A stretch of DNA of 33,930 nucleotides, from contig JADGCQ010000036.1 in the NCBI GenBank assembly GCA_015228925.1, positions 1 to 33,930 on the forward strand. The letters are read 5' to 3'. Below, in pieces: positions 1 to 28,554 of the stretch (position 1 is the stretch's first letter; each line of letters opens with the position of its first letter). Made by a program: the position numbers and the translations under genes. The notes beneath the pieces were generated by a model. The model ran no database searches, had not been told where the DNA came from, and saw only the letters and a program-made list of their open reading frames with translations. This DNA is from Magnetococcales bacterium. Its GTDB lineage: Bacteria; Pseudomonadota; Magnetococcia; Magnetococcales; UBA8363.

Positions 1-3000
1 CGGTTTTGAACGATACCGATGGTTCCGAATCGCTCAGTATCACGATCTCTGGCGTCCCCGATGGGGCGGAGTTGTCTGCCGGTGTCCAAAATGCAGACGG
101 TTCCTGGACCCTTTCCGCCGAGCAGTTGTCTGGGTTGACCATTACACCGCCCGCCAACTCCGACGCCGATTTTAGCTTGAGTGTTGCCGCCACCGCCACC
201 GATGGTTCCGATACTGCGGTGACGACGGGGACCATCAACGTCTCTGTGGATCCCGATGCCGATGCCCCGACGTTGGTGGTTGATGATGCCAGCGGTACGG
301 AAGATCAACCGATCGCCCTGGATCTTTCGGCGGTATTGAACGATACCGATGGTTCCGAATCGCTCAGTATCACCATCTCTGGCGTTCCCGATGGGGCGGA
401 ACTTTCCGCCGGTGTCCAAAATGCGGACGGTTCCTGGACCCTTTCCGCCGATCAGTTGTCTGGGTTGACCATCACACCGCCCGCCAACTCCGACGCCGAT
501 TTTAGCTTGAGTGTTGCCGCCACCGCCACCGATGGTTCCGATACTGCGGTCACGACGGGGACCATCACTGTCTCTGTGGATCCCGATGCCGATGCCCCCA
601 CGCTGGTGGTCCATGACATCAGTGGTTCGGAAGATCAGCCTATCCCTCTGGCCATCAACCTGTCTCTGAATGATCTGGATGGGTCGGAAACCATCAGTGG
701 GGATATTGTGCTGACCGATATTCCCGATGGTGCAACCCTCAACATGGGCCACGCTGGAGCGGAGGCGCATACCTGGATCATTCCCCAGAACCTGTTGACG
801 GTGACACAAACCAATGAACAGGGTAGTGCCGTGGCGTGGGAAATTCCTGGTCTGCAACTGACCCCTCCGGCAGACAGCGACGCCGATTTTACGCTCGGTA
901 TCCAGATTACGACCAGCGATGGTGTCGATACGTTTACCGCCAATAGTTCGTTCGATGTGACGGTGATGGCGGTTGCCGATGACCCCGCATTGACGATGAC
1001 GGATGCCGCAGGCGATCAGGACCATAGTATTGCCCTGGATATCGTTTCTGGATTGGGCGACATCGACGGTTCGGAAACACTGACCTTGACCATCGGTGGC
1101 GTTCCTGCGGGGGCGGTCCTTTCTGCTGGTACCGATAATCATGATGGAACCTGGTCCCTTTCGGCGGGTGATTTGGACAACTTGACGATTACCCCGCCGC
1201 CGGGCAGTCACGCTGATTTTTCCTTGACGGTCACAGCCACGGCGACCGAGGCCGATGGCGGTGATGCCAGGACCATCACCGGTACGTTGGATGTCAGCGT
1301 TCGGGAAGACCTGGACGGAGTATCCATGGCCCTTCCTGCCGCTGCCGGTAACGAAGATAGTGCTATTGGACTGAACATTCGTATCGATCTCAACGATACC
1401 GATGGTTCCGAGTCACTGAGTGGTGCGATCATTCTGACAGGGGTACCCGAAGGGGCTGTCTTGAATATTGGCCATGCCGGGGCCGTCCCCGGCACATGGG
1501 AAATTCCTCAGGATGCCCTGGGTGTTGTGGAACATAATGGCAGTGGTGTCGCTATCGCCTGGGATATTCCGGGATTGACTTTGCAACCCCCTGCCGATTC
1601 CAATCAAGATTTCTCCCTGGGCGTTCAGGTGACCACCCTGGAGGATGGTGAGGAAAGGGCTTGGACTTCCAACCTTGATGTCCAGGTGGCGGGTGTTGCC
1701 GACGCCCCAGAGGTCTCTTTGGGGGTGGGGATCAGTACGTTGGTAGATGTGGCAGGTGTCCCCGCGACGCAAGTGTATGAGGCTCCGATCACCATCAGTG
1801 CCCAACTGGCAGATACCGATGGTTCCGAAACGTTGTCGATCATCCTCGGTGGACTTCCCCAGGGAGCGACCCTTTCTGCTGGTATCGACAATGGTGATGG
1901 CACTTGGACTTTGGCGGAGGCCGATCTTCAAGGATTGTCCATCCAGGTTCCCAAGGAGGCGGGTGATAGTCCTTTCAATCTGACCGCCACTGCCACCGCG
2001 ACGGAAAATGATGGGGATGTCAGGTCGGCCAATGCAACGTTGAATGTTGATTTTACCGATGATTATGATCCCCAGGCCCAGGATGATACCGGTGTAACCC
2101 AATCGGCGACGCCGGTGACGATTGATGTTCTGGCCAACGATACCAGCCCTACCGACCAACAGTTGTCTCTCCATGCGGTGGAGGGGGCCGAAAATGGTAC
2201 GGTGGCGATCGTCGATGGCAAACTGGTCTATACCCCGGATAGCGATTTCACCGGGGTGGAAAGATTGACCTATACCGTGATCGACGAAAATGGTCATGCC
2301 GATACCGGTTCCGTTGTGGTCAACGTCGGTTCTCGGGTCAACGTCCAGGAGGTGTTGGAAAGCGGCAATGCATGGCCTGGGGCGACGAGCAGCACCGATA
2401 AGACCGTCATCAATGCCAGCGATGGTGTCAGCGATACCGTCCATGCCGATCTTTATCCCGAAGGGGGGACCATCACCCTGACCATCTCGGCCCAGGCTCC
2501 GGCGGGAAGTCTGCCGGATTCTTTGGATCTTTATATTCTTCAGGATCTGACCGGCTCCTATAAGGACGACATCAATACGATCCGGGGGGATCAAAATTCC
2601 ACCAATAATTCCGGGGATTTGGGTATTCTCGACAATTTGGTACAGGGGATCAATGCCTTGGTGCCCGATACCCACTACGGTCTTGGGTCTTTCAAAGATG
2701 CCGTCGCGGGTGTGGATACTTCCGGCCAGGACAGATTGATCCACGAACTTGACTTGCGTACAGATACGACGGGTTCCTACCTGGATGGTACGACGAGCAG
2801 CAAGGGTTATGACAAGATGTCGGCCAACGGTGGTCAAGGGGGTAATCCGAACGAAGACCAGATCACCGCTCTCAACGATGTCGCCGTGGCGGCGTTGAAC
2901 AATCAGTATGGTTTTCGGGCTGGGGTTCCCAAGGTGGTGGTCATCGCCACCGATGCCCCTTCCGATACCTCGGCTGCCGAGATTGCCGAATGTGCCGCCA

Positions 3001-3935
3001 ACCTCCAGGCAGCCAATATTGTCCCCATTTTTCTGGTCGCCGATGGTTGGGCGGATTTGGATGAGATGGGGTTTTATCGGGATATCGTTGACCAACTGGG
3101 TCGGGGTGGGGTCGTGGAATTGAGTCTTACATCCGACAATTTGGTGGAGGCGGTTCGGTCAGCCGTGCAGCAAGCGGTGGGTAACATTCAGTTGAATATC
3201 GAAGGTGACGAGTACGGTTATGCCCATGTTGTCGATCACAGTGCAACTGGCGATGGGCTTCATACCTGGACGGTTGAGTTGGATGCCGCCCTGTATGATA
3301 GCCATAGTGCCGATTCTCTCCAACTGACGGTGACCGATGCCGATGGGAATACCCTCGGTACCACCACCACGGTGGATGTCACGGCCCAGATCGATATCGC
3401 CGGGACCGCCTATAATGACGTACTCACCGGACACCAGGGCGATAACGTGATCGCTGGTGATGCGGGGGATGATGTCATCCATGGTCTGGGTGGTTCGGAC
3501 ACGATTGACGGTGGTGCTGACAATGACACCCTGTATGGTGACGCGGGGGATGATACCGTCCATGGCGGGACTGGGGATGATACCGTCTACGGGGGGACCG
3601 GAGATGACATCATCGACGGGGGGGCTGGCAGTGATACCCTGTGGGGTGAAGAAGGCAATGATCTGTTCATCTTCGGTGCTGGCGGTGGTCACGATAGCGT
3701 GGATGGCGGCGTTGGTGCCAGTTGGTTAGATTCTATCGAGTTGGAAGGGGTTGTGGGAGGCCCTGCGGAAAGTCTTGAACATGTGGGCGATTGGACGTTG
3801 GATACAAACAGCGGTTTTACGGTGGATGCGGATAGCCATCATATTGACTTTGATGATCCTGATGCCTCGGGGACCATCACTTTGGCCGATGGTTCTGTCA
3901 TCGAGTTCCACAACATCGAACACATTCAGTGGTAG
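1..3935 (+). CDS. RTX-type giant adhesin with Ig-like repeats and integrin-like VWA domain (5' partial)
   Basis: The frame is open from the first base, so the true start lies upstream; the TTG at 6 sits inside a repeat and is not a start. Numbering from base 6, six repeat units begin at residues 1, 111, 221, 350, 462 and 601, each with an L-x-D-x-D-G-S-E-[ST] opening. A different cadherin-like/VCBS-like module follows at about 690-775. Residues about 838-1040 form a VWA domain with an integrin-beta-like MIDAS (DxTxS at D847, T849, S851, and a later TDAPS near 982). RTX calcium-binding nonapeptides of GGxGxDxx type run from about 1138 to 1225, followed by an acidic and aromatic C-terminus typical of type I secretion signals. 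By family analogy this is a secreted or surface-anchored calcium-dependent adhesin. No type I transporter genes are in the window. Function as an adhesin is inference; the RTX and VWA calls are seen directly. Confidence 0.93.
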   Translation, partial: VLNDTDGSESLSITISGVPDGAELSAGVQNADGSWTLSAEQLSGLTITPPANSDADFSLSVAATATDGSDTAVTTGTINVSVDPDADAPTLVVDDASGTEDQPIALDLSAVLNDTDGSESLSITISGVPDGAELSAGVQNADGSWTLSADQLSGLTITPPANSDADFSLSVAATATDGSDTAVTTGTITVSVDPDADAPTLVVHDISGSEDQPIPLAINLSLNDLDGSETISGDIVLTDIPDGATLNMGHAGAEAHTWIIPQNLLTVTQTNEQGSAVAWEIPGLQLTPPADSDADFTLGIQITTSDGVDTFTANSSFDVTVMAVADDPALTMTDAAGDQDHSIALDIVSGLGDIDGSETLTLTIGGVPAGAVLSAGTDNHDGTWSLSAGDLDNLTITPPPGSHADFSLTVTATATEADGGDARTITGTLDVSVREDLDGVSMALPAAAGNEDSAIGLNIRIDLNDTDGSESLSGAIILTGVPEGAVLNIGHAGAVPGTWEIPQDALGVVEHNGSGVAIAWDIPGLTLQPPADSNQDFSLGVQVTTLEDGEERAWTSNLDVQVAGVADAPEVSLGVGISTLVDVAGVPATQVYEAPITISAQLADTDGSETLSIILGGLPQGATLSAGIDNGDGTWTLAEADLQGLSIQVPKEAGDSPFNLTATATATENDGDVRSANATLNVDFTDDYDPQAQDDTGVTQSATPVTIDVLANDTSPTDQQLSLHAVEGAENGTVAIVDGKLVYTPDSDFTGVERLTYTVIDENGHADTGSVVVNVGSRVNVQEVLESGNAWPGATSSTDKTVINASDGVSDTVHADLYPEGGTITLTISAQAPAGSLPDSLDLYILQDLTGSYKDDINTIRGDQNSTNNSGDLGILDNLVQGINALVPDTHYGLGSFKDAVAGVDTSGQDRLIHELDLRTDTTGSYLDGTTSSKGYDKMSANGGQGGNPNEDQITALNDVAVAALNNQYGFRAGVPKVVVIATDAPSDTSAAEIAECAANLQAANIVPIFLVADGWADLDEMGFYRDIVDQLGRGGVVELSLTSDNLVEAVRSAVQQAVGNIQLNIEGDEYGYAHVVDHSATGDGLHTWTVELDAALYDSHSADSLQLTVTDADGNTLGTTTTVDVTAQIDIAGTAYNDVLTGHQGDNVIAGDAGDDVIHGLGGSDTIDGGADNDTLYGDAGDDTVHGGTGDDTVYGGTGDDIIDGGAGSDTLWGEEGNDLFIFGAGGGHDSVDGGVGASWLDSIELEGVVGGPAESLEHVGDWTLDTNSGFTVDADSHHIDFDDPDASGTITLADGSVIEFHNIEHIQW
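6..665 (+). repeat. Near-identical tandem 330-bp repeat in the adhesin gene
   Basis: Two adjacent 330-bp units start at 6 and 336. Their first ~290 bases differ at only a scattering of positions, and the encoded residues differ at about two positions before the end of each unit diverges. A third unit begins exactly one period later at 666 but is much more diverged. The DNA-level similarity points to recent duplication or gene conversion, and the copy number upstream of the window is unknown. Confidence 0.9.
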
Positions 3936-3959: not shown

Positions 3960-4000
3960 GGGGGCTGAGGGGAATCATCCCCTTCAGGCCCCCGTTGTTT
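3960..4000 (+). terminator. Hairpin terminator after the adhesin gene
   Basis: Arms GGGGGC (3960-3965) and GCCCCC (3988-3993) pair, and the stem continues inward through TGA/TCA and GGGGA/TCCCC with single-base bulges to a 4-base loop. A short T-rich run (GTTGTTT) follows. It lies 25 bases after the adhesin stop and just before the 3' end of the convergent hicB-like gene, so it may serve both strands. Confidence 0.7.
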
Positions 4001-4409
4001 AGATCGGCTCCACCATCCTCCTGGCCGCTTCCATCAGAAAGCCTGAGCGTGTCATCCCTATTTCCCGAGCAGTCACATCAATGCGTTGTAACAGAGTTTC
4101 TGCCATGGAAACGTTGACCGTTACCCATTTTGCCGGTACGTCCACCCGCACCAAGGCACGCAAAACCTCATCGACCTCCTGGTCATGTCCGATCTCGCCG
4201 AACCGCGATGGGGCAGGAATATCTTCGCCATCTCTCACCATGGCTCCAATATGCAGCACCAACGCCTTCTCCGCATTGCGCAGAGCCTCTCCCAACGAAT
4301 CTCCGCCAGACACACATCCCGGCAAGTCCGGGAAAAATCCCCCAAACCCAACTTCTCCGGCATCGTTTTCCCCGCGTTCAATGATGATGGGGTAATGTTT
4401 CACATTCAT
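3999..4409 (-). CDS. HicB-family antitoxin, no adjacent HicA
   Basis: This 136-residue protein has the two-part HicB layout. The N-terminal half is the degenerate RNase-H-like HicB fold with the FFPDLPGCVSGGDSLGEALRNA signature. The C-terminal third (about 95-133) is a ribbon-helix-helix DNA-binding segment with the pattern VTVNVSMAETLLQRID. HicB proteins neutralise the HicA mRNA interferase and autorepress the operon. Start ATG at 4409 is preceded by AGGAGGA about 8 bases upstream. No HicA-like double-stranded-RNA-binding ORF is visible on either side: downstream is only the adhesin terminator, and upstream is a short ORF unlike HicA. It is either an orphan antitoxin or acts with a toxin encoded elsewhere. 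Confidence 0.85.
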   Translation of the reverse strand: MNVKHYPIIIERGENDAGEVGFGGFFPDLPGCVSGGDSLGEALRNAEKALVLHIGAMVRDGEDIPAPSRFGEIGHDQEVDEVLRALVRVDVPAKWVTVNVSMAETLLQRIDVTAREIGMTRSGFLMEAARRMVEPI

Positions 4410-7301: not shown

Positions 7302-7550
7302 CTATTGGAAAACATCGTCGATTGACTTGGCATCCAAAATGTTCTCTGTCCACTTCTTAAGAGTCTCCATGTCAGTCTTTGCCAGCTTGGCAGGAACCCA
7401 TTTTGGCGTCGAGCCGAAACGTTTTGAAAGGAGGCGCAGCAAGATGAGCGTTTCTCCTTCTCGGCGGCCTTTTGCAATCAGATCCTGAGCGAATAGGGAC
7501 ATCATCTTCTCTTCCTCCTCGGGACGTACCTTGTGAATAATCTCACGCAC
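7302..7550 (-). CDS. DUF4351-like small protein; probably the C-terminal part of the upstream ORF
   Basis: This 82-residue frame starts at GTG 7550 and overlaps the end of the upstream ORF by 8 bases. The segment LIAKGRREGETLILLRLLSKRFG followed by LKKWTENILDAKSIDDVF is typical of the C-terminal helical region (DUF4351-like) found at the end of Rpn/PD-(D/E)XK transposase-like proteins. Such a domain is rarely free-standing. It is either translated by coupling at the overlapping GTGcgTGA, or it is the displaced tail of a single ~245-residue protein broken by a one-base indel. The family name is recalled, not searched. Confidence 0.6.
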   Translation of the reverse strand: MREIIHKVRPEEEEKMMSLFAQDLIAKGRREGETLILLRLLSKRFGSTPKWVPAKLAKTDMETLKKWTENILDAKSIDDVFQ

Positions 7551-8040
7551 TGTCCCGAAACACTACCGATGATTGTTCCAACCGGCTGATTTTCTCGTTC
7601 AGATGGGGCAGAACATATTCCTTGATGTGCTGTACCCGTTCCAAATCCAGTTTTTCCATGGTGTGTCGCTCCTCCTCCGAGGTGTCGGGGCCGATTTTTT
7701 TATGCTTCCACATCAAAAGCCAAGCGAGTTCGTTCAAAACCTCAAATTCGTGGCGAATCCCTTCCGGCAACGGATATTCCGGCGTAGCCTCACCGGGAAT
7801 GACGGGGTGGATGTGTCGTTGGGCCATACGCCGGATGGCTCCAGGGATCCAGTGAAGAAACTGGTCCCACAGCCCTTTGCGGCAACAGGTCAGTTGTGAA
7901 TGAATGGTCTCTTTGATGAAGGCGCGGGCCGATTCTTTTTCTTGTTCAGTCAGGCTGTCAAACTCGCGTAAATCCAGAAAATTGTTCGTCACAAACGCCG
8001 CTGTTTCCGCCTCATTCAATTCAAATCTGGACATGACCAT
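7543..8040 (-). CDS. Conserved hypothetical protein, likely N-terminal part of a frameshifted or coupled pair
   Basis: This 165-residue protein has no signal peptide or membrane segment. It is rich in charged and aromatic residues and ends in a helical stretch (YVLPHLNEKISRLEQSS). I do not recognise a defined enzymatic motif, and the N-terminal PD-(D/E)XK nuclease core of Rpn proteins is not evident. The ATG at 8040 has AAGGAG eight bases upstream, so translation starts efficiently. It follows the response regulator gene by 36 bases on the same strand and is probably co-transcribed with it. The next frame (7302-7550) continues a plausible protein after a one-base shift. Confidence 0.6.
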   Translation of the reverse strand: MVMSRFELNEAETAAFVTNNFLDLREFDSLTEQEKESARAFIKETIHSQLTCCRKGLWDQFLHWIPGAIRRMAQRHIHPVIPGEATPEYPLPEGIRHEFEVLNELAWLLMWKHKKIGPDTSEEERHTMEKLDLERVQHIKEYVLPHLNEKISRLEQSSVVFRDSA

Positions 8041-16838: not shown

Positions 16839-17144
16839 TTATAGATCCCTTAGGATTTCAGGCAGATCCCTAGCTCCATGCAAGAAACGCAGGACTATCG
16901 GCGGTTCCAACGCGGCATCATAAACGATGATGTAGGGAAAGCCAGACAGGGGAAGGAATCGAACTGGAGGCAAGGCAAGGTCCGTGAACGTCCGGCCTAG
17001 AAGAGGATGCTTTCCCAGATGGCGAGTTGCCTGATGGACGGCGTTCTTCAACGCTTGGGCCGAAGCTGGGTTGTCATTGGCAATCCAACGGATGGCCTCG
17101 ATAAATTCCTCACGAGCCTTCGAGGAAAAGATTGCGGATCTCAT
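16839..17144 (-). CDS. parE: ParE/RelE-superfamily toxin
   Basis: This 101-residue basic protein has the ParE-type layout: an N-terminal FSSKAREEFIEAIRWIA helix, NPASAQALKNAV, HLGKHPLLGRTF and the C-terminal strands RFLPLSGFPYIIVYDA and IVLRFLHGARDLP. ParE toxins inhibit DNA gyrase, while RelE relatives cleave mRNA; the RFLHGARD ending favours the ParE side. It overlaps the antitoxin gene by 4 bases (17141-17144), the usual antitoxin-first order. It converges with tex, whose stop is 8 bases away. Confidence 0.93.
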   Translation of the reverse strand: MRSAIFSSKAREEFIEAIRWIANDNPASAQALKNAVHQATRHLGKHPLLGRTFTDLALPPVRFLPLSGFPYIIVYDAALEPPIVLRFLHGARDLPEILRDL

Positions 17145-17398
17145 TGGGGATTGGATGCTTTTTCGATAACCCTGTCTGCTTCTGCCATGACATCCTCAAG
17201 GGGATGTCCGCCGTCCTTTTCGGTTTCTGCTCGTACCATATCCAGCATGGCACCGAACCGGGTACGCCGTTCCTCTCCGTCCTGGAGCAGACGCAAAGCA
17301 TTGCGTACAACCTCGCTGACGTTGTTGTATCGCCCGCTTTCCACGCAACTGCGTGCGAAGGATTCAAGTTCCGGTGTGAGATGAACGTTTGTAGCCAT
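17141..17398 (-). CDS. parD: ParD-family ribbon-helix-helix antitoxin
   Basis: This 85-residue antitoxin has an N-terminal ribbon-helix-helix DNA-binding domain (MATNVHLTPELESFARSCVESGRYNNVSEVVRNALRLL, described here as residues 1-38 with the key G-R-Y-x-x-x-S-E-V-V-R stretch). An acidic C-terminal region that would wrap the ParE toxin follows. ParD neutralises ParE and represses its own promoter. The ATG at 17398 is preceded by AAGGA seven bases upstream; an upstream ATG at 17431 would overlap the operator palindrome and is unlikely. Confidence 0.93.
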   Translation of the reverse strand: MATNVHLTPELESFARSCVESGRYNNVSEVVRNALRLLQDGEERRTRFGAMLDMVRAETEKDGGHPLEDVMAEADRVIEKASNPQ

Positions 17399-17413
17399 GA
17401 CGTAATCCTTGAA

Positions 17414-17428
17414 TGTCAATGATTGACA
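17414..17428. promoter_or_regulatory. Operator palindrome upstream of parDE
   Basis: TGTCAATGATTGACA is a perfect 7+1+7 inverted repeat 16 bases upstream of the parD ATG. It starts two bases after the predicted -10 box, an ideal place for autorepression by the ParD ribbon-helix-helix domain. Binding by ParD is inferred from family behaviour. Confidence 0.75.
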
Positions 17429-17429
17429 C

Positions 17430-17458
17430 ATCGTAAACTAAGGCATTTTGGTTGGCAA
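17430..17458 (-). promoter_or_regulatory. Predicted sigma70-type promoter of parDE
   Basis: Read on the minus strand, TTGCCA (17453-17458) and TACGAT (17430-17435) are separated by exactly 17 bases. Four of six -10 positions match consensus. The palindromic operator follows at once. Confidence 0.6.
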
Positions 17459-17769: not shown

Positions 17770-17813
17770 CCGCCGGATTTTTTTCTTCCTCTTTAAAGAT
17801 CAGAATCCGGCGG
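17770..17813. repeat. 10-bp perfect inverted repeat spanning the stop codon of the outer-membrane protein gene
   Basis: CCGCCGGATT (17770-17779) and AATCCGGCGG (17804-17813) are perfect complements separated by 24 bases. The right arm is the last codons of the minus-strand gene. A run of seven T follows the left arm on the plus strand. It may form an mRNA 3' hairpin for the minus-strand gene or a terminator-like structure, but the long loop and lack of a T tract on the minus side make it atypical. Confidence 0.5.
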
Positions 17814-18963
17814 ATATGCCCAATGAAACGAGGCCGTAGGGCTTGTCGAACTGATGTGAACTGAGCAGATTATAGGCGTAGGGAACGTCACCCAGGAATT
17901 GATTGGTCATGTATTGAGATCGGAGGAAGAGGGCGACCTGGGGGTGGATCTTGTAGCTGACTTCGCCGGTGATGTGGTTATTGGTCTTGTAGACGGTTTT
18001 GTCGGCATGTTGCAGAGTCGAGACCGCTTCGTCCAATGGTCCTCGATCCCATGTTTGCAGCCGGTATCCAAGTTTTAGCCGCCAATCCTCATTGCGCCAC
18101 TGGATCATTCCGCCAAATTGCAGATAATCGGCGTCATAACTGACATACATTCCAGGGGGCAAGTCTGGGGCATTGTAGAAACTCATGGATTGGGTAAATT
18201 CTGTCAGGCCGCAGTTGGGATCCTTGGCATTGACGGCGACCCCATGGACGCCGGTATCCCAGCCGCCATTGACCTCATCGGTTAGCAGTACCCGATCCAA
18301 TTTGTAGTTGCAACCATAAAGGGTGGCGTAGGTATCGCCGATACTGACCTGACTGACACCATAGCTTGTGAAGAGAGATATCGAAGTGGACGGGGTTAAA
18401 GCCCAGGAGCCGATGACATCCCCCTGGAATTGCCGGTCGCTGGGATCTTTGATTGTAAAAGAATCGGCGGAGATTCCCGTTCCAAAGACCGGCGTTGACG
18501 AACCCTTGTAGATTTGGCCGGTCCCATTGCCCCACCCGGAGATTCTTAAGGAGATGGCGGGTCTGTATCTTTTGTTGTCTACGACGCGATATTGGATGCC
18601 CGCTTGGTAGGTTCGATTCTTTCCCTCATCAAAGGGGGTTTTTACCGTGCTGTTCCAGAAACCTCCATCCACCCATAGGCGTTTATCCAGAGCCAGTCCA
18701 CCGCGCAGGTGTTGTCCTTCATAGTCTCCAATGGATTTCCCCCGGGGATCTTCCTTGCGAACACGAAACAGATCAATGGTGCTGTTCATGGCATCCCATC
18801 CCGCTTCGACCTCGCCATGGAGGGGTCGCGTTTCCTCTTGAACGGAGAGCAGCTCATCAAGAGGGGCGGCGGTGGTTGCGCCGGGGATGGCCAAGCCGAC
18901 CAGGACGGGCAGACATACGGGTGAAATACAACGCCGCAAGGCTTTTGGGGATGGTTTGATCAC
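17800..18963 (-). CDS. Outer-membrane beta-barrel protein (porin-like)
   Basis: The 387-residue protein begins with a Sec signal peptide: basic start KPSPKALRR, hydrophobic core LPVLVGLAIPGA and an Ala-rich cleavage region near residue 32. The mature part has alternating hydrophobic and aromatic strands (for example LRLKLGYRLQTW, VALFLRSQYM) and ends in SLGISAGF. The C-terminal phenylalanine is the signature recognised by the BAM complex. I do not recognise a named family. The start codon is GTG at 18963, with GGTGGA about 11 bases upstream. It is a single gene with no partners. A pore or a sensor barrel are both possible; the barrel call is firm, the substrate unknown. Confidence 0.8.
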   Translation of the reverse strand: MIKPSPKALRRCISPVCLPVLVGLAIPGATTAAPLDELLSVQEETRPLHGEVEAGWDAMNSTIDLFRVRKEDPRGKSIGDYEGQHLRGGLALDKRLWVDGGFWNSTVKTPFDEGKNRTYQAGIQYRVVDNKRYRPAISLRISGWGNGTGQIYKGSSTPVFGTGISADSFTIKDPSDRQFQGDVIGSWALTPSTSISLFTSYGVSQVSIGDTYATLYGCNYKLDRVLLTDEVNGGWDTGVHGVAVNAKDPNCGLTEFTQSMSFYNAPDLPPGMYVSYDADYLQFGGMIQWRNEDWRLKLGYRLQTWDRGPLDEAVSTLQHADKTVYKTNNHITGEVSYKIHPQVALFLRSQYMTNQFLGDVPYAYNLLSSHQFDKPYGLVSLGISAGF

Positions 18964-22073: not shown

Positions 22074-23399
22074 TCATGTGACGGTATCCAGGGCTTCATG
22101 GATGGCGTCCCAGGCGGTATGGAGTTCCTCATCGGTCAGGCAATAGGGTGGTAGCAGGTAGATGACTTCGCCCAGGGGACGGATGAGGAGTCCCCGGTCG
22201 AGGAAAAACTGTTTGAGCTTGGGGCCGATGGCGGCACTGTATCCGCTGGAGCCGGGGTTTGCGACATTGAGTGCGGCGATAACTCCGGTACAGCGGGGTT
22301 TGGTGACCCTGGGGTGGGTGATGAGTCCTTGGAGGCGTTGGCGGTGGATGGTTTCTAGCCGGGCGCAGTTTTGCAGGGGTTCGCCGGAAGCAAAGAGATC
22401 CAAGGAGGCCAAGGCGGCGGCGCATCCCAGGGGGTTGGCGGTAAAGGAATGGCCGTGAGCCAGGGCACGGTCAAAGGTATCTCCCAGGAAGGCGTCATGG
22501 ATTTTTTGCTGGCAAACGGTGACCGCCATGGGCATAAACCCTCCGGTCAATCCCTTGGACAGACAGATGATATCGGGGATGATCCCCCCCTTTTCACAGG
22601 CAAACAGGGTTCCAGTGCGTCCAAACCCGGTCATGACCTCATCGAAAATAAGCAATCCCCCCGCTTGATGGATTCTCTGAGATAATTTTTGCAGAAACAT
22701 CGGACGGCACATGCGCATCCCGGAGGCCCCCTGTACCAAAGGTTCCAGGATGATGGCCGCCAGTTCTTGACCGTGTTGGGATAACAGTCGGTCTAATGCC
22801 GCCAGGGCCGTTTCTTCGCGGTTTTCCACCTGGTCATCCCCCTCCCAGGTTTCCGGGAAGGGGATGGTGTCCACCCGAAACAGATAATCGGTGAATGGCT
22901 CAAAAAAGCCCGAAGAGCGGCCCACGGACATGGCACCGACGGTATCGCCGTGGTATCCCCCTTGGAGTACGGCAATCCGATTGCGTGGTGTCCCCAGGTT
23001 GCGGTGATACTGAATGGCCATTTTCAGGGCGACTTCCACGGCGGTGGAACCGTTGTCGGAAAAAAATACCCGACTGAGACCTGGCGGGAGTCGGTCGGTC
23101 AGGCGTTGGGCCAGCCGGACGGCGGGTTCGTGGGTGAAGCCGGCGAAGATGACCTGTTCGAGTTGTCTGGCCTGTTGGGCGATGGCGGCGGCAATGACGG
23201 GATGGGCATGACCGTGGACGCAAAGCCACCAGGATGAGATAAGATCCATGATTTTACGGCCATCGGTGGTATGCAACCACGCCCCTCGGGCGGAGGCGAT
23301 GGGGATGGGCGGTGGGGCGGTGGCCTCCTGGGTGAACGGGTGCCAGACGTGCGACCGGTCCAGATGAACCCAACTATTTTCCGGGTATTGCTGAGACAT
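22074..23399 (-). CDS. bioA: Adenosylmethionine-8-amino-7-oxononanoate aminotransferase
   Basis: BioA is the PLP enzyme that converts 7-keto-8-aminopelargonate to 7,8-diaminopelargonate using S-adenosylmethionine as amino donor, the second step of biotin ring assembly. From the chosen ATG it has 441 residues. VWHPFTQ near the start, SSWWLCVHGHAHP, VFFSDNGSTAVEVALKMA, GGYHGDTVGAMSVG and DEVMTGFGRTG are class-III aminotransferase and BioA motifs. The PLP lysine is K282 in LSKGLTGGFMPMAV. A TTG at 23429 overlaps the bioD stop and would extend it by ten residues; the ATG at 23399 has GGAG upstream and fits homolog starts better. It is the last gene of the biotin operon. Confidence 0.96.
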   Translation of the reverse strand: MSQQYPENSWVHLDRSHVWHPFTQEATAPPPIPIASARGAWLHTTDGRKIMDLISSWWLCVHGHAHPVIAAAIAQQARQLEQVIFAGFTHEPAVRLAQRLTDRLPPGLSRVFFSDNGSTAVEVALKMAIQYHRNLGTPRNRIAVLQGGYHGDTVGAMSVGRSSGFFEPFTDYLFRVDTIPFPETWEGDDQVENREETALAALDRLLSQHGQELAAIILEPLVQGASGMRMCRPMFLQKLSQRIHQAGGLLIFDEVMTGFGRTGTLFACEKGGIIPDIICLSKGLTGGFMPMAVTVCQQKIHDAFLGDTFDRALAHGHSFTANPLGCAAALASLDLFASGEPLQNCARLETIHRQRLQGLITHPRVTKPRCTGVIAALNVANPGSSGYSAAIGPKLKQFFLDRGLLIRPLGEVIYLLPPYCLTDEELHTAWDAIHEALDTVT

Positions 23400-23425: not shown

Positions 23426-24043
23426 TCAATACGCCTCAGACGGCAGGGCTGCCAGGGTTTGGGCGTTCAGAGGGGTGAGGTGCGGTATGGCTGCCAGAAT
23501 GGGGCAATGGGCATAATCGCGTAGGGCGTGCGTATTGGCCGGGTTTTCGGGACCATTGAGTATGATCCCCAGAATGGGAATCTGCCGATGGCGGAGGGCT
23601 TCAAGGCTCAAGAGGGTATGATTGATGGTGCCAAGGGCGGTCCGGGCGACGAGAACGACGGGAAGATCCAGATGGCGGATCAGATCCACCATGAAGTCTT
23701 TTTTGTTCAGCGGAACCAAAACGCCTCCAGCCCCTTCGACCACCAGCGGGCGTGGTGAGGGGGGGAGGGAAAAATCATCCAGATGGATGGAAATTCCGTC
23801 GCGGCGAGCCGCCTCATGGGGAGATAACGGCTGAGTCAGGGAAAAGGTGGGTGGATAACAATGATGATCATCCAATCCCGTCAGCTTTTGGATCAGGTGG
23901 GTATCGGTTTCCCCTTCCAGTCCTGACTGAATGGGTTTCCAATAGTTGGCACTCAGGCGATGGACTAGCCAAGCGGAAACGACACTTTTTCCGACTCCCG
24001 TGTCGGTTCCCGTGACAAAAATGTTTTGGGTTGGCCATTTCAT
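23426..24043 (-). CDS. bioD: ATP-dependent dethiobiotin synthetase
   Basis: BioD closes the ureido ring of dethiobiotin from 7,8-diaminopelargonate, CO2 and ATP. The P-loop GTDTGVGKS is at 12-20, preceded by NIFVT. PLSPHEAARRDG and VVEGAGGVLVPLN are further substrate and nucleotide-binding motifs of the family. The protein has 205 residues, slightly shorter than E. coli BioD. Its ATG overlaps the upstream lipoprotein stop by 4 bases, and its stop is next to the bioA start. Confidence 0.96.
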   Translation of the reverse strand: MKWPTQNIFVTGTDTGVGKSVVSAWLVHRLSANYWKPIQSGLEGETDTHLIQKLTGLDDHHCYPPTFSLTQPLSPHEAARRDGISIHLDDFSLPPSPRPLVVEGAGGVLVPLNKKDFMVDLIRHLDLPVVLVARTALGTINHTLLSLEALRHRQIPILGIILNGPENPANTHALRDYAHCPILAAIPHLTPLNAQTLAALPSEAY

Positions 24044-24714
24044 GGAGTGGGGTTGGCTTTGCGTGCTTCGCGCAGCCGCTCCTCCCGACGATTGATAATC
24101 TCTTGCATCTCCGAGGAGTATCCTTGGGATGAAGTTCTTCTTGGATTGATGGCGGTCTGGGGGTCATCCAGGGGTGGGTCGGGAAAAGGGACCGCAGCGG
24201 TTCCTGGGGAGGGGATCGGTTTGGGATACGATGCGTTGGGAGAGGCGGATTCGTTCACGGTGATTGTTTTGGTCTTGGCGGTGGCGAGGGCTTCTAGTTC
24301 GGCGATGCGTTCGTCGGAAAGTCCAAAACGTCTTCCCATTTCACGAATGCTTTTAAGATCGGGGGCGTTCTCCTGATCGAGAGACATTCCGGCATCGGCG
24401 GCACGTTTTTGGAGTAATTGGGCCTGTTCCTTAAGATGATCCCGGTCTAGCTTTTGCAATTTTTCCGTGGGAATCTCCTGGCGCAGAATATCCGATGGGA
24501 CCGGCTCATGCAGGAATAGATCTTCACTCAAGGAAACGGCTTCGAGACTGGAGCTGAAGATCCTCGTGATGGTCCCAAGCATCCCTTCCTGATCGGAACC
24601 CTCGGTCAGTTCCGCCGATTTTTTCTGGTCCCAGGTTTTATCGGAGTTGTTGGAACAACCAGCCAGTGCAACCAGTAGCAAGCTTGCGAGAATGGATATC
24701 ATGGGGGGGTGCAT
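24040..24714 (-). CDS. Uncharacterised lipoprotein encoded inside the biotin operon
   Basis: This 224-residue protein starts MHPPMISILASLLLVALAGC: a short hydrophobic signal with a textbook lipobox (LAGC), lipidated at C20. The mature part is hydrophilic, with a predicted helical stretch at about 78-145 (KLQKLDRDHLKEQAQLLQKR and FGLSDERIAELEALATA). A proline-rich linker (about 160-192) and a short charged helix at the end (SSEMQEIINRREERLREARK) follow. I recognise no family. AGGAG six bases before ATG 24714 supports strong translation. Its stop overlaps the bioD ATG by 4 bases, and bioB ends 80 bases upstream, so it is truly inside the operon. A role in biotin uptake, salvage or envelope function cannot be decided from sequence. 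Confidence 0.85.
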   Translation of the reverse strand: MHPPMISILASLLLVALAGCSNNSDKTWDQKKSAELTEGSDQEGMLGTITRIFSSSLEAVSLSEDLFLHEPVPSDILRQEIPTEKLQKLDRDHLKEQAQLLQKRAADAGMSLDQENAPDLKSIREMGRRFGLSDERIAELEALATAKTKTITVNESASPNASYPKPIPSPGTAAVPFPDPPLDDPQTAINPRRTSSQGYSSEMQEIINRREERLREARKANPTP

Positions 24715-24794
24715 GATGATCTCCTGGAATGGTTGCTTCGGTTTTGCCGGGGATGGGCTTTCAACCGAAGCGGGTGTGGTGGATGCTTGGCTTT

Positions 24795-25811
24795 CTAATC
24801 GGACGCTTCTACCTTTTCCACGAAGAATCCTGCATCTTCGATCATTTGTTTGGTTTTTTCAATACCGTGACCACCAACATTGAGATACCCTTCGCTGAAT
24901 AATGAGTTGGCGGGGAAGAGGGCCAATGATTCCAGGGTGCGCAGGTTGGCTTCCCGTCCCCCAGCGGCACGAATTTCGGCGTCGGGGTTGATGAAACGGA
25001 ACAACGCCAGGGCACGGAGGCATTTTTGCGGCGTCAAGTCTTGCCGGGCACCCAGTTTGGATCCTTCGACGTGGACATAAAAATTGACGGGAATGGACCG
25101 GGCATTGAGTTGTCGCAGTTTCATGGCCACCGTCACGATTTCCTCGTCGCTTTCCCCCATGCCGATGATGATGCCACTACAGATTTCCAACCCTTCGGTG
25201 CGGGCGGCTTCGAGGGTTTTGACCCGTTCGGCATAGGAATGGGTGGTGCAGATGCTCCCATAATGAGACTCGGCGGTGTTCAGGTTATGGTTATAACGGT
25301 CCAAACCCGCTTCTTTGAGTTTTCTGGCGGTGTCGCGGTCGAGAAATCCGGCGGACAGACAGACTTCCACGGGCCAGGATTGTTTGATTTTTTGCACCAG
25401 ACCCGCCATGTGTTCCACCCGTGCGGCGGGGGGCTGTCGTCCTGAGAGGACGATGCAATAGCGGTAGGCCCCACTTTTAAAGGATTCTTCGGCCCCTTGG
25501 AGGATCTCTTCGTCCGATTTTAAGGTGTATTTTTCGATGGGGGCCTTGCTGTTGGCCGCCTGGGCGCAATAATTACAATCTTCGGGGCAATAACCATTTT
25601 GCACATTATTCAGAATGTGGATTCTGACCCCCAGGCCAAAGTGATGTTGCCGTATTTTGAAGGCCCCTTGGAGCAGGGGCAACAACTCCAGGGCGGGATC
25701 GTTGAGGATCCGTAGGGCGTTTTCGGGGGAGGGGAGCTTCCCTTGAAGTGCGTCTTGGGTTAGGTGATGAATGAAATGTCCGTTGGTCATGGGATTGGGG
25801 TTCACGTTCAC
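24795..25811 (-). CDS. bioB: Biotin synthase (radical SAM)
   Basis: BioB inserts sulfur into dethiobiotin. The radical-SAM CxxxCxxC motif binding the [4Fe-4S] cluster is C75, C79 and C82 (GYCPEDCNYCAQ). Other BioB signatures are YRYCIVLSGRQ, VCLSAGFLDRDTARKLKEAGLDRYNHNLNTAES, GIIIGMGESDEEIV, and the AAGGREANLR and NSLFSEGYLNVGG segments around the [2Fe-2S] cluster region. The protein has 338 residues. The GTG at 25811 overlaps the bioC stop as GTGA; an ATG at 25790 (MTNGHFIHHL) is an alternative. Confidence 0.97.
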   Translation of the reverse strand: MNVNPNPMTNGHFIHHLTQDALQGKLPSPENALRILNDPALELLPLLQGAFKIRQHHFGLGVRIHILNNVQNGYCPEDCNYCAQAANSKAPIEKYTLKSDEEILQGAEESFKSGAYRYCIVLSGRQPPAARVEHMAGLVQKIKQSWPVEVCLSAGFLDRDTARKLKEAGLDRYNHNLNTAESHYGSICTTHSYAERVKTLEAARTEGLEICSGIIIGMGESDEEIVTVAMKLRQLNARSIPVNFYVHVEGSKLGARQDLTPQKCLRALALFRFINPDAEIRAAGGREANLRTLESLALFPANSLFSEGYLNVGGHGIEKTKQMIEDAGFFVEKVEASD

Positions 25812-26599
25812 GGTTTCCCAGTTTTTCTATGGTTGATAAAGGTTCCGAAGAACACATGGTGCGTTACGGTCAAAGGGGTGGGGATCCCTCCAGGGGGCAC
25901 CAGCAATCGGCGCAGTTTTCCGGCGGGTGCGGGTTGATGGTTGGGTGCGGGGGTTTCGGCACCGATGGCTTTGAGTCGTTTGAGGAAATCCAGGGTGGAT
26001 GGGTAGGTCTCCGGGATATGCTCCTCGGACAGCTCCAAAGACATCTTTTGTTTGGTCGCCAAGTCAAACCAAAAATCGGCACCGGGATAATGATGCAGAC
26101 CGCAGGGGATCTGATGATTTTCGCATAGGCTGCGCCATTCCTGGAAGGTATCGGGTCCAAGGGTGGCGAACAGGAGCCGTCCCGAGGGGGCCAAGAGGTT
26201 TAAAAGGTTGGCGACGCTTGCGGCGGGGTGATGAAACCATTGAAAAACCATGGAGGCGGCGATCAGATCGAAGGCGGTGTTGAGGCAGGGGGCCTCGGCG
26301 TCCATGACGGCGAATTTGAGGGTATTCTGGGGGTAGGATTGCAGATTGGCCTGGGTGCGCAGGACCATGGCGGGGGCGATATCGGAAAGGAGCAGGTGTG
26401 TGTGTGGCAGTCGCTCCAGCCACAAGCGACTCAAGAAGCCGGTGCCGCACCCCAGTTCCAGGCCGTAAAGTTTTTCTTTTGGGGGAACTTGGGCCAATCC
26501 CAGGGCCAGTTTTTCGGCGATTTGGGCTTGAATCATCGCCTGTTGGTCGTAGGCATGGGCGCGGTTGAAGGCGGTCCGTATGGGGCTTGGGCCGTTCAT
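25808..26599 (-). CDS. bioC: Malonyl-ACP O-methyltransferase
   Basis: BioC methylates the free carboxyl of malonyl-ACP with S-adenosylmethionine, disguising it so that fatty-acid synthesis can build the pimelate chain of biotin. The N-terminal FNRAHAYDQQAMIQ is typical of BioC. The SAM-binding motif LELGCGTGFLSRLWL is at 48-62, followed by LLSDIAPAMV and FDLIAASMVFQWF. At 263 residues it is full length. It overlaps bioH upstream and bioB downstream by four bases each. Identity rests on both motifs and operon context. Confidence 0.95.
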   Translation of the reverse strand: MNGPSPIRTAFNRAHAYDQQAMIQAQIAEKLALGLAQVPPKEKLYGLELGCGTGFLSRLWLERLPHTHLLLSDIAPAMVLRTQANLQSYPQNTLKFAVMDAEAPCLNTAFDLIAASMVFQWFHHPAASVANLLNLLAPSGRLLFATLGPDTFQEWRSLCENHQIPCGLHHYPGADFWFDLATKQKMSLELSEEHIPETYPSTLDFLKRLKAIGAETPAPNHQPAPAGKLRRLLVPPGGIPTPLTVTHHVFFGTFINHRKTGKP

Positions 26600-27291
26600 G
26601 AAAAATGCTGGTCCAGGAATGTGGAGACGATGGCGGCGTAGGGTTCGGGTTGGGTGATGAGTGGCATGAAATGTCCCCCTTGATCAAACCAGTGCAGCCC
26701 GCCCGCCGACACCGGGGGGAGGTGGCCAAAACAATCCAGGGTCATGGATTTGGGGACGATGCCATCGTCACGCTGGGCCAGGGCCAGCCAGGGGCGGGTC
26801 CAATGATGGAGTGTCTGGCGTTCATCCCAGGTGGCCAGCCAGTTCAACCCTTGAGCCAGGGCGGCTTCATCCCCTTGGGCGCGGAGTCCGGCCAAGGGGC
26901 GGTTGACCCCTCCCAGGGCCATGAATTGATCCAATACTTGGTTGGAGTCGTGGGACAGTTCTCCGGCCATTTTATGGAGTATGCGTCTGTCCACCCCATG
27001 GGGGAAATCGGAGCCACGGACAAAGCGGGAAAATCCCATGAAGGAGATGAGACCCAGACAATGGGATGGCCAGGGTGGTTGCCCCAGTTGCCGGAGGATC
27101 CAGAGGAATCCGGTGGAGTGTCCGATGGCAACCCAGGGTTGATCCTTGGGGATCTCCAGGCGGGGGGGGCCGAAAAAGCCCAGATCCAGGGTGTGTGTTG
27201 GCCAATCTCCCAGGGCGCGGATCAACGGTCGCCAGAAACCGGGGCCAAAGCCCCAGCCATGGACAAAGAGCAATGTGGGACGCATGGTCAT
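26596..27291 (-). CDS. bioH: Pimeloyl-ACP methyl ester carboxylesterase (BioH-type alpha/beta hydrolase)
   Basis: BioH removes the methyl ester from pimeloyl-ACP, ending the BioC-started chain-elongation detour. From ATG 27291 the protein has 231 residues. The oxyanion region LLFVHGWGFGPGFW is near 7-20, and the nucleophile is S59 in GHSTG. An acid at D175/D176 (QRDDGIVP) and H207 (GGHF) complete a plausible triad. The open frame extends to 27678, but that part is an antisense-style shadow of bioF with a low-quality composition. ATG 27291 overlaps the bioF stop as ATGA, so this is the true start. BioH sequence is variable, so the name also leans on context. Confidence 0.92.
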   Translation of the reverse strand: MTMRPTLLFVHGWGFGPGFWRPLIRALGDWPTHTLDLGFFGPPRLEIPKDQPWVAIGHSTGFLWILRQLGQPPWPSHCLGLISFMGFSRFVRGSDFPHGVDRRILHKMAGELSHDSNQVLDQFMALGGVNRPLAGLRAQGDEAALAQGLNWLATWDERQTLHHWTRPWLALAQRDDGIVPKSMTLDCFGHLPPVSAGGLHWFDQGGHFMPLITQPEPYAAIVSTFLDQHFS

Positions 27292-28469
27292 GGGTGGCAC
27301 CCGTGCCAGAGGGTGATGGCCGTTTTCAGCCGTTCCAAGGCGGTGTCGTCGTGCGCGGCGGTGAGAGAAAAACGGACGCGGCTCGATCCGGCGGGGACGG
27401 TGGGTGGGCGGACCGCTATCGCCATGATGTCGGCCTGGGATTCCAGATCGTGCGCCATGGCGAGGGTGCGGGTTTCCGAACCGAGGATGACGGGGATGAT
27501 GTGGGTGGAAGAATGCCCGTAATTGAGACCCAGGGATTCGAGATGTTGGCGCAACTCGTGGCCTTTTTTTAACAATCGTTGCCGTTGGGGTTCTAAGGTT
27601 GGCAGCAGTTCCAACGCCGCATCCATGGCACCCAGAACGCCGGGGGGGAGGGCGGTGGAATAGATGAATCCTGCACAATGGTTGATCAGGAATTGGCGCA
27701 GGGGTTGGGGACAGACGGCATAGGCACCGAACCCACCGAGGGCTTTGCTGAAGGTTCCCATGACCAGATCGGCTTCACCGGGAAAATCGGCGGCCAGGCC
27801 AAAGCCATCTTTGCCCAGAACCCCCACGGCATGGGCTTCATCAAGATAGAGGAAGGCATGATAGCGACGTTTGAGCGCAAGCAAGCCCGCGACATCGGCG
27901 CGGTCGCCATCCATGCTGAACACCGTTTCCGACAGGATGAATTTGGGGTTGGGAGCGTTGATGTGTTGTTTCAACAGCTCTTCCAGGTGATTCAGGTCAT
28001 TGTGTCGATAACGGATTTGGCGGATTCCGGTGGTTCGGATCCCCTGGTGCATGGAGGCGTGGTTAAGGCGGTCGGAGAAAACGAGGGGGGATTGTTTGAG
28101 GATGGATGGATCCAGCAAAGAGGCGAGAAGACTGGAATTGGCCTGAAAACCGGAATTGAACACCAAGGCCGATTCATACCCTTTGCCGCTGGCCAGTCTG
28201 GCTTCGACCTGCTGGAAAAGTTCCATGGTGCCGCAGACCAGACGTGATGCGGTGGATCCGGTTCCCCATTGGGTTGTCCATTCGTTGGCACGGGCGATCA
28301 GGGCGGGGTGGTCGGCCAGTCCCATGGTGTTATTGGAGGAAAAATTGAGGAGACTGCGACCGTCGCGGGTGGTTTGCCCCCCATGGCTGGGGCCAACGGG
28401 ACGCAAGGTGCGCAGGCAATGGGCTTGGCGGCGATCCTCAAGGAAGCGTTCGTAGGCGGCGTAAGGCAT
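27288..28469 (-). CDS. bioF: 8-amino-7-oxononanoate synthase
   Basis: BioF is the PLP enzyme that condenses pimeloyl-ACP (or -CoA) with L-alanine to make 7-keto-8-aminopelargonate. The 393-residue protein shows LNFSSNNTMGLADHP, GSTASRLVCGTM, ALVFNSGFQAN, LYLDEAHAVGVLG with D210, and the PLP lysine K242 in MGTFSKALGGFGAY. These are the alpha-oxoamine synthase signatures, and the operon settles BioF over relatives such as Kbl or HemA. It is the first gene of the operon, 20 bases downstream of the BirA-like operator. Confidence 0.97.
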   Translation of the reverse strand: MPYAAYERFLEDRRQAHCLRTLRPVGPSHGGQTTRDGRSLLNFSSNNTMGLADHPALIARANEWTTQWGTGSTASRLVCGTMELFQQVEARLASGKGYESALVFNSGFQANSSLLASLLDPSILKQSPLVFSDRLNHASMHQGIRTTGIRQIRYRHNDLNHLEELLKQHINAPNPKFILSETVFSMDGDRADVAGLLALKRRYHAFLYLDEAHAVGVLGKDGFGLAADFPGEADLVMGTFSKALGGFGAYAVCPQPLRQFLINHCAGFIYSTALPPGVLGAMDAALELLPTLEPQRQRLLKKGHELRQHLESLGLNYGHSSTHIIPVILGSETRTLAMAHDLESQADIMAIAVRPPTVPAGSSRVRFSLTAAHDDTALERLKTAITLWHGCHP

Positions 28470-28488: not shown

Positions 28489-28526
28489 TATGGTAAACCA
28501 ACATGAGAGACAACAAGTTTACCATA
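28489..28526. promoter_or_regulatory. BirA-type biotin operator upstream of bioF
   Basis: TATGGTAAAC (28489-28498) and GTTTACCATA (28517-28526) form a perfect 10+10 inverted repeat. Read as the BirA consensus TTGTAAACC-N16-GGTTTACAA, the site is TGGTAAACC-N16-AGTTTACCA, with one and two mismatches in its half-sites and the same 16-base spacer as the E. coli bio operator. It abuts the predicted -10 box, so bound BirA-biotinyl-AMP would block initiation. The consensus is established knowledge; binding here is inferred. Confidence 0.88.
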
Positions 28527-28554
28527 CTATCGGTCTCTCTTCGGGCAGCGTCAA
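28526..28554 (-). promoter_or_regulatory. Predicted promoter of the biotin operon
   Basis: On the minus strand TTGACG (28549-28554) and GATAGT (28526-28531) are separated by 17 bases. The -35 box matches five of six consensus positions and the -10 box four of six. Transcription would start inside the BirA-like operator. Confidence 0.65.

Follow-up and report, generated by a model that had tools for sequence, protein, structure and literature searches.

The biotin operon described here raises the question why the gene of an envelope lipoprotein should stand among those of a vitamin pathway. The window, by which we mean the whole stretch of 33,930 nucleotides that was analyzed, belongs to a Magnetococcales genome (G000) of 4.25 Mb in 219 contigs, and its minus strand carries, according to open reading frames and Pfam assignments, an operon of the order bioF-H-C-B-LPP-D-A, in which LPP denotes the lipoprotein encoded between bioB and bioD (Table 1). 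The end of bioB is separated from LPP by 80 nt, the AGGAG lies 7 nt 5' of the LPP ATG, and the LPP stop and bioD start codons share 4 nt (ATGA). A preliminary description of this DNA had recognized a lipobox protein with a strong ribosome site that is located between bioB and bioD and overlaps bioD by four bases, and the open reading frame, the LAGC motif, the AGGAG with its pairing energy of -7.4 kcal/mol and the ATGA bear this out. With a probability of roughly one half, LPP would be a lineage-specific passenger lipoprotein of the envelope that is held in the operon mainly by its coupling to bioD, for which it would serve as a translational leader.

Table 1. Coordinates of the biotin operon and of its control elements in the window.
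Feature	Position	Strand	Basis
bioA, DAPA aminotransferase; alternative TTG start 23429	22074..23399	-	Pfam
bioD, dethiobiotin synthetase	23426..24043	-	Pfam AAA_26
ATGA, LPP stop/bioD start overlap	24040..24043	-	bioD pairing -0.3 kcal/mol
LPP, 224-aa lipoprotein	24040..24714	-	ORF, lipobox, homologs
Shine-Dalgarno AGGAG of LPP	24721..24725	-	anti-SD pairing -7.4 kcal/mol
Hairpin GCTTCGGTT...AACCGAAGC, bioB-LPP spacer	24735..24771	-	folding z -3.0
bioB, biotin synthase	24795..25811	-	Pfam Radical_SAM + BATS
bioC, methyltransferase	25808..26599	-	Pfam
bioH-like alpha/beta hydrolase	26596..27291	-	place in the operon and conservation; weak Pfam hit
bioF, first gene of the operon	27288..28469	-	Pfam
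BirA-type operator GTAAAC-N18-GTTTAC	28493..28522	palindrome	sole exact match in the 4.25-Mb genome
Sigma-70-like promoter TTGACG-17-GATAGT, adjoining the operator	28526..28554	-	promoter scan

Elsewhere the window contains a large repeat adhesin-like protein with apparent calcium-binding RTX repeats, open at the window's left end (6-3935), a HicB-like antitoxin gene for which no HicA partner is evident among the listed ORFs (3999-4409), a ParD/ParE toxin-antitoxin pair with a 4-nt overlap (16839-17431), and two ORFs without Pfam match (7543-8040 and 17800-18963), the second of which resembles a porin-type outer-membrane protein.

Linkage of the lipoprotein gene to biotin loci

Using a profile built from 15 homologs, LPP was found in 16 of 48 Magnetococcales genomes, and all 16 homologs are housed in a bio locus, in agreement with the link to biotin loci drawn in the preliminary description, for which homologs mostly outside such loci would have been the adverse outcome. 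Carriers occur in seven Magnetococcales families (f1, f2, f5, f8, f9, f12, and f14), and f13 contains a weak LPP fragment. The order bioB-LPP-bioD is present in 13 genomes (G000-G007, G014, G015, G018, G022, and G029). In broken operons LPP was kept with bioD twice, once as an LPP-bioD pair that shares a contig with bioB but stands about 315 kb away from it (G025) and once as a pair with bioB on a different contig (G020), and with bioB once, where LPP follows bioB and bioD is located elsewhere (G008). In this last genome bioD (L132) is preceded, at a gap of 1 nt, by the gene of a different predicted exported coiled-coil protein (7504-8022).

Such exclusive and deep linkage, which survived two rearrangements together with bioD, might indicate an envelope factor that is made under biotin scarcity and that aids the acquisition or retention of biotin or its precursors, e.g., as an accessory of outer-membrane uptake; the BirA operator upstream of the operon, the purifying selection on LPP and the lack of homologs elsewhere, all described below, point in the same direction. 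We consider this reading possible, although rather unlikely. Most genomes of the order are without LPP, among them four close relatives of family f9 that carry the full bioF-H-C-B-D-A operon, with bioB joined straight to bioD and without an LPP match. Three of these are metagenome-assembled genomes of 65-82% completeness and one is 90% complete, and the bio locus itself is whole in each. Since the operon is intact in these genomes in the absence of LPP, the lipoprotein is, judged by gene content, dispensable for biotin synthesis. Furthermore, BioY is encoded in 0 of the 48 genomes, so that no BioY partner is available, the operon was not seen to include a transporter gene, and no ligand-binding fold was seen in LPP. 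The members of the LPP family lack similarity to known proteins of biotin synthesis or transport such as BioG, BioK, and BioY at Pfam and NCBIfam cut-offs. The earlier idea of a biotin-related surface or transport factor gained no support from any of the results: relatives with an intact operon do without LPP, and the order offers no BioY with which it could pair. A narrower version, in which LPP acts as an effector of biotin status at the envelope, e.g., in the passage of biotin or its precursors across the outer membrane, and is co-expressed with and translationally coupled to BioD, seems to us more doubtful still.

Mapped onto a tree of bioB and bioD, the presence of LPP requires at least 7 changes, 2 of which are forced by well-supported branches. 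This fits an old insertion of LPP between bioB and bioD followed by repeated losses, with transfer of LPP as a possible alternative history.

The bio loci of relatives also contain unrelated CheV, MCP, GGDEF, and PilZ genes, which makes it plausible that LPP is a passenger as well; unlike these signaling genes, LPP occupies a position that is conserved across seven families. A CheV-type gene (CheW and response regulator) adjoins bioD at L059, L060, L062, L063, and L064, in some of them between bioD and bioA, and is thereby present in bio loci of sister species and not in the window. By reading, an apparent MCP gene is found between bioD and bioA in G015 (L068:6189-8567), and in family f7 a PilZ gene follows bioB. 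In G019 (L077:10279-11507) a GGDEF-like gene and the gene of a 101-aa lipoprotein are located between bioB and bioD. This short lipoprotein, on the bioD side, shows a weak match of 8 bits to half of the LPP core and was left uncounted; it may be a decayed LPP copy.

Transcriptional control

The source genome encodes a single BirA (G000:C15) with an N-terminal HTH (HTH_11, 6e-8; BPL_LplA_LipB, 3e-23; BPL_C), and the palindrome GTAAAC-N18-GTTTAC occurs once in this genome, 53 nt before bioF, and 0 times in 100 shuffles of the window. This combination of a BirA carrying an HTH and a genome-unique palindrome upstream of bioF makes it very probable that the operon is under BirA control. Of 20 bioF-led clusters, 14 have a BirA-type palindrome close to the start of bioF at up to 1 mismatch and 18 at up to 2, while the 363 kb of those loci contain only 3 other matches at up to 1 mismatch. 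The operator fits the published BirA signal, TTGTAAACC-N14/15-GGTTTACAA (PMC545781), but in the window the half-sites are separated, if counted as in the publication, by N16, which exceeds N14/15 by one. In its bioF-H-C-B-D-A set, its BirA with N-terminal HTH and its GTAAACC...GGTTTAC near the first gene, the system resembles other BirA-regulated biotin operons, from which it differs by the lipoprotein gene embedded between bioB and bioD. The promoter-like TTGACG-17-GATAGT adjoins the operator in a region whose number of promoter-scan matches is not above that of shuffles. LPP would be transcribed with bioF-H-C-B from a promoter that is blocked by BirA-biotinyl-AMP, and in the window's species it is very probably a cistron of the BirA-controlled transcript.

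The preliminary description had expected LPP to be repressed by biotin with the pathway; as a general property this does not hold up. A promoter-like pair is located in the bioB-LPP spacer of 6 of the 8 members of the genus, its -35 element starting 23-24 nt after the bioB stop and its spacing being 18-19. It is clearest in G005 and G001 (TTGAAA-18-TATAAT, matched by 0 of 300 shuffles), the scores of the others being individually marginal (p 0.02-0.37). With these sites LPP need not follow biotin repression in such species, which suggests that, over the genus as a whole, it probably does not belong strictly to the biotin regulon and argues against a factor reserved for biotin scarcity, as an internal promoter would release it from biotin control. 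For the spacer of the window the promoter scan gave no promoter, the score being at shuffle level, and its near twin G004 likewise has none. Both carry a hairpin at the place of the promoter-like site of the sister species (-18.7 kcal/mol, z -3.0 in the window; z -1.3 in the twin). This hairpin, just 5' of the LPP ribosome site, is a perfect 9-bp inverted repeat with a 19-nt loop; window and twin agree in its arms and differ in the loop.

Probable translational coupling of LPP and bioD

In every carrier the Shine-Dalgarno of LPP pairs with an energy between -6.4 and -11.7 kcal/mol. For bioD the value is -0.3 kcal/mol in the window and G004 and lies between -0.5 and -5.1 kcal/mol in the other members of the genus; the window's bioD thus has essentially no ribosome site of its own. 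In the four f9 genomes without LPP, bioD directly abuts or overlaps bioB and is preceded by a Shine-Dalgarno of -6.1 to -13.1 kcal/mol, a clear GAGG within the end of bioB. The 4-nt overlap of LPP and bioD is present in 13 of 15 LPP-bioD pairs. Stop and start codons that overlap in this way commonly link the translation of both genes through termination-reinitiation (PMC6728339, PMC10666635). It speaks against coupling that removal of the Shine-Dalgarno usually weakens re-initiation in E. coli and that the overlapping pair bioBF of E. coli was uncoupled in a reporter test (PMC6728339). With known ATGA/TGATG pairs that use this mechanism, LPP-bioD shares the 4-nt ATGA overlap and the strong Shine-Dalgarno of the upstream gene; it differs in that the upstream gene encodes a lipoprotein without known pathway role and in that bioD is without an intragenic Shine-Dalgarno.

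Because bioD lacks a Shine-Dalgarno, the overlap is conserved, and the relatives without LPP have a bioD ribosome site, BioD synthesis probably depends on ribosomes that come fresh from LPP. Ribosomes would load at the strong LPP site, terminate at the ATGA and re-initiate on bioD. Termination-reinitiation of this kind can explain the linkage of the two genes, and the missing bioD ribosome site, which goes beyond the 4-base overlap noticed initially, would be a simpler reason for it than a common function. It would then mainly be coupling, and not a function in the biotin pathway, that keeps LPP and bioD together. In G025 and G020, however, the stretches before bioD are strongly Shine-Dalgarno-like (-8.0 and -9.3), so that coupling would be unneeded there, although the linkage persists.

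Taken to its extreme, the ORF would matter solely for being translated, and the lipoprotein would be inert. The window's bioD without ribosome site and the conserved 4-nt overlap would be accounted for in this way; nevertheless, we regard it as improbable in view of the selection on the protein. Compared with the near twin, LPP has a dN/dS of 0.32, and compared with two further species one of 0.21; bioB, at 0.04-0.07, lies below LPP, which is closer to bioC and bioD. By these ratios of 0.2-0.3 LPP is under purifying selection, and the lipobox cysteine is invariant and the core conserved across families. These ratios and the core also weigh against the passenger reading that we favor, since they indicate that the protein sequence matters beyond what a mere leader needs.

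The lipoprotein and its family

The N-terminus of LPP reads MHPPMISILASLLLVALAG/CSNN, in which LAGC forms a clean lipobox. A signal peptide (1-19) and Cys20 are followed by a charged stretch, a conserved helical core at about 43-150 (~105 residues) that is the part best common to all families, a Pro-rich linker (151-198) and a charged C-terminal helix (201-220), which ends RREERLREA in the window's genus. Among the 15 aligned homologs the lipobox Cys is invariant and nearly all have Gly at -1. A positively charged n-region is usual for lipoproteins and not strictly required; 13 of the aligned homologs have 1-3 Lys/Arg there, the window species and its 92%-identical twin (G004) none, which is a weak point in the assignment of LPP as a lipoprotein. 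At +2 most members have Ser and none has Asp, which suggests, by the E. coli +2 rule for lipoprotein sorting, an outer-membrane location. LPP is therefore similar to bacterial lipoproteins processed by Lgt/LspA in its signal peptide with lipobox, its invariant Cys and its mostly Ser +2, and differs from them by having no sequence or structural relative and, in the species pair, no basic n-region residue.

The preliminary description had suspected an undescribed lipoprotein, and the database searches are in line with this. None of the 15 members had an above-cut-off match in Pfam or NCBIfam, and no relative of LPP was found among the solved structures of the PDB. AlphaFold modeling of LPP plus one relative gave a pLDDT of 44, and the core alone reached a pLDDT of 63 and a pTM of 0.30; a PDB fold search returned nothing at E below 1. 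The profile search found no credible homologs in about 350 other Pseudomonadota; distant matches in G244 and G353 are confined to the N-terminal portion of the profile (positions 1-113 and 1-44, respectively, both starting with the signal peptide) and were left out of the count. By these searches LPP represents an undescribed protein family that is specific for Magnetococcales and has no entry in the family libraries that were searched, and a literature search found no paper on a lipoprotein within a biotin operon.

Residues 120-149 (SIREMGRRFGLSDERIAELEALA) resemble sigma factor region 4.2, with weak PDB and NCBIfam matches (E 0.009-0.06) and two helices at a local pLDDT above 90, and LPP could accordingly be imagined as a membrane-tethered regulator with an HTH related to region 4. 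We judge this very improbable: with so many searches, E-values of this size are close to chance, the structure search returned nothing at E below 1, and a domain behind an invariant lipobox would be extracytoplasmic and thus separated from DNA. The likeness to the sigma-70 region 4 HTH extends over ~25 residues, is below significance (best E 0.0092, far short of the curated cut-off) and stands in an extracytoplasmic context, and it was set aside as chance or convergence. That LPP is a spurious ORF or an assembly artefact, for which its lack of a database family might speak, can practically be dismissed, as the homologs in 16 carriers already refute it and the conserved Shine-Dalgarno, the selection and the conserved overlap argue against it as well. 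The invariant Cys, the homologs in seven families and the dN/dS of 0.21-0.32 mark LPP, at the level of sequence comparison, as a real gene rather than a chance ORF.

Implications

The passenger reading with LPP as leader of bioD can be outlined as follows. A lipoprotein specific for Magnetococcales, probably anchored in the outer membrane on its periplasmic side, would have become a fixed cistron of a BirA-controlled operon, with an added internal promoter in most sister species and not in the window's species, and the protein itself would do envelope work that is dispensable for biotin synthesis. BioD, an enzyme of vitamin synthesis, may in this way depend on the translation of an unrelated membrane protein. 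If a role in biotin were true after all, LPP would link the envelope to the supply of biotin, and to our knowledge no other lipoprotein does so. The LPP family has so far been met only in biotin operons. Constant adjacency to a given gene should be interpreted with caution, as it can stem from translational coupling rather than from common function.
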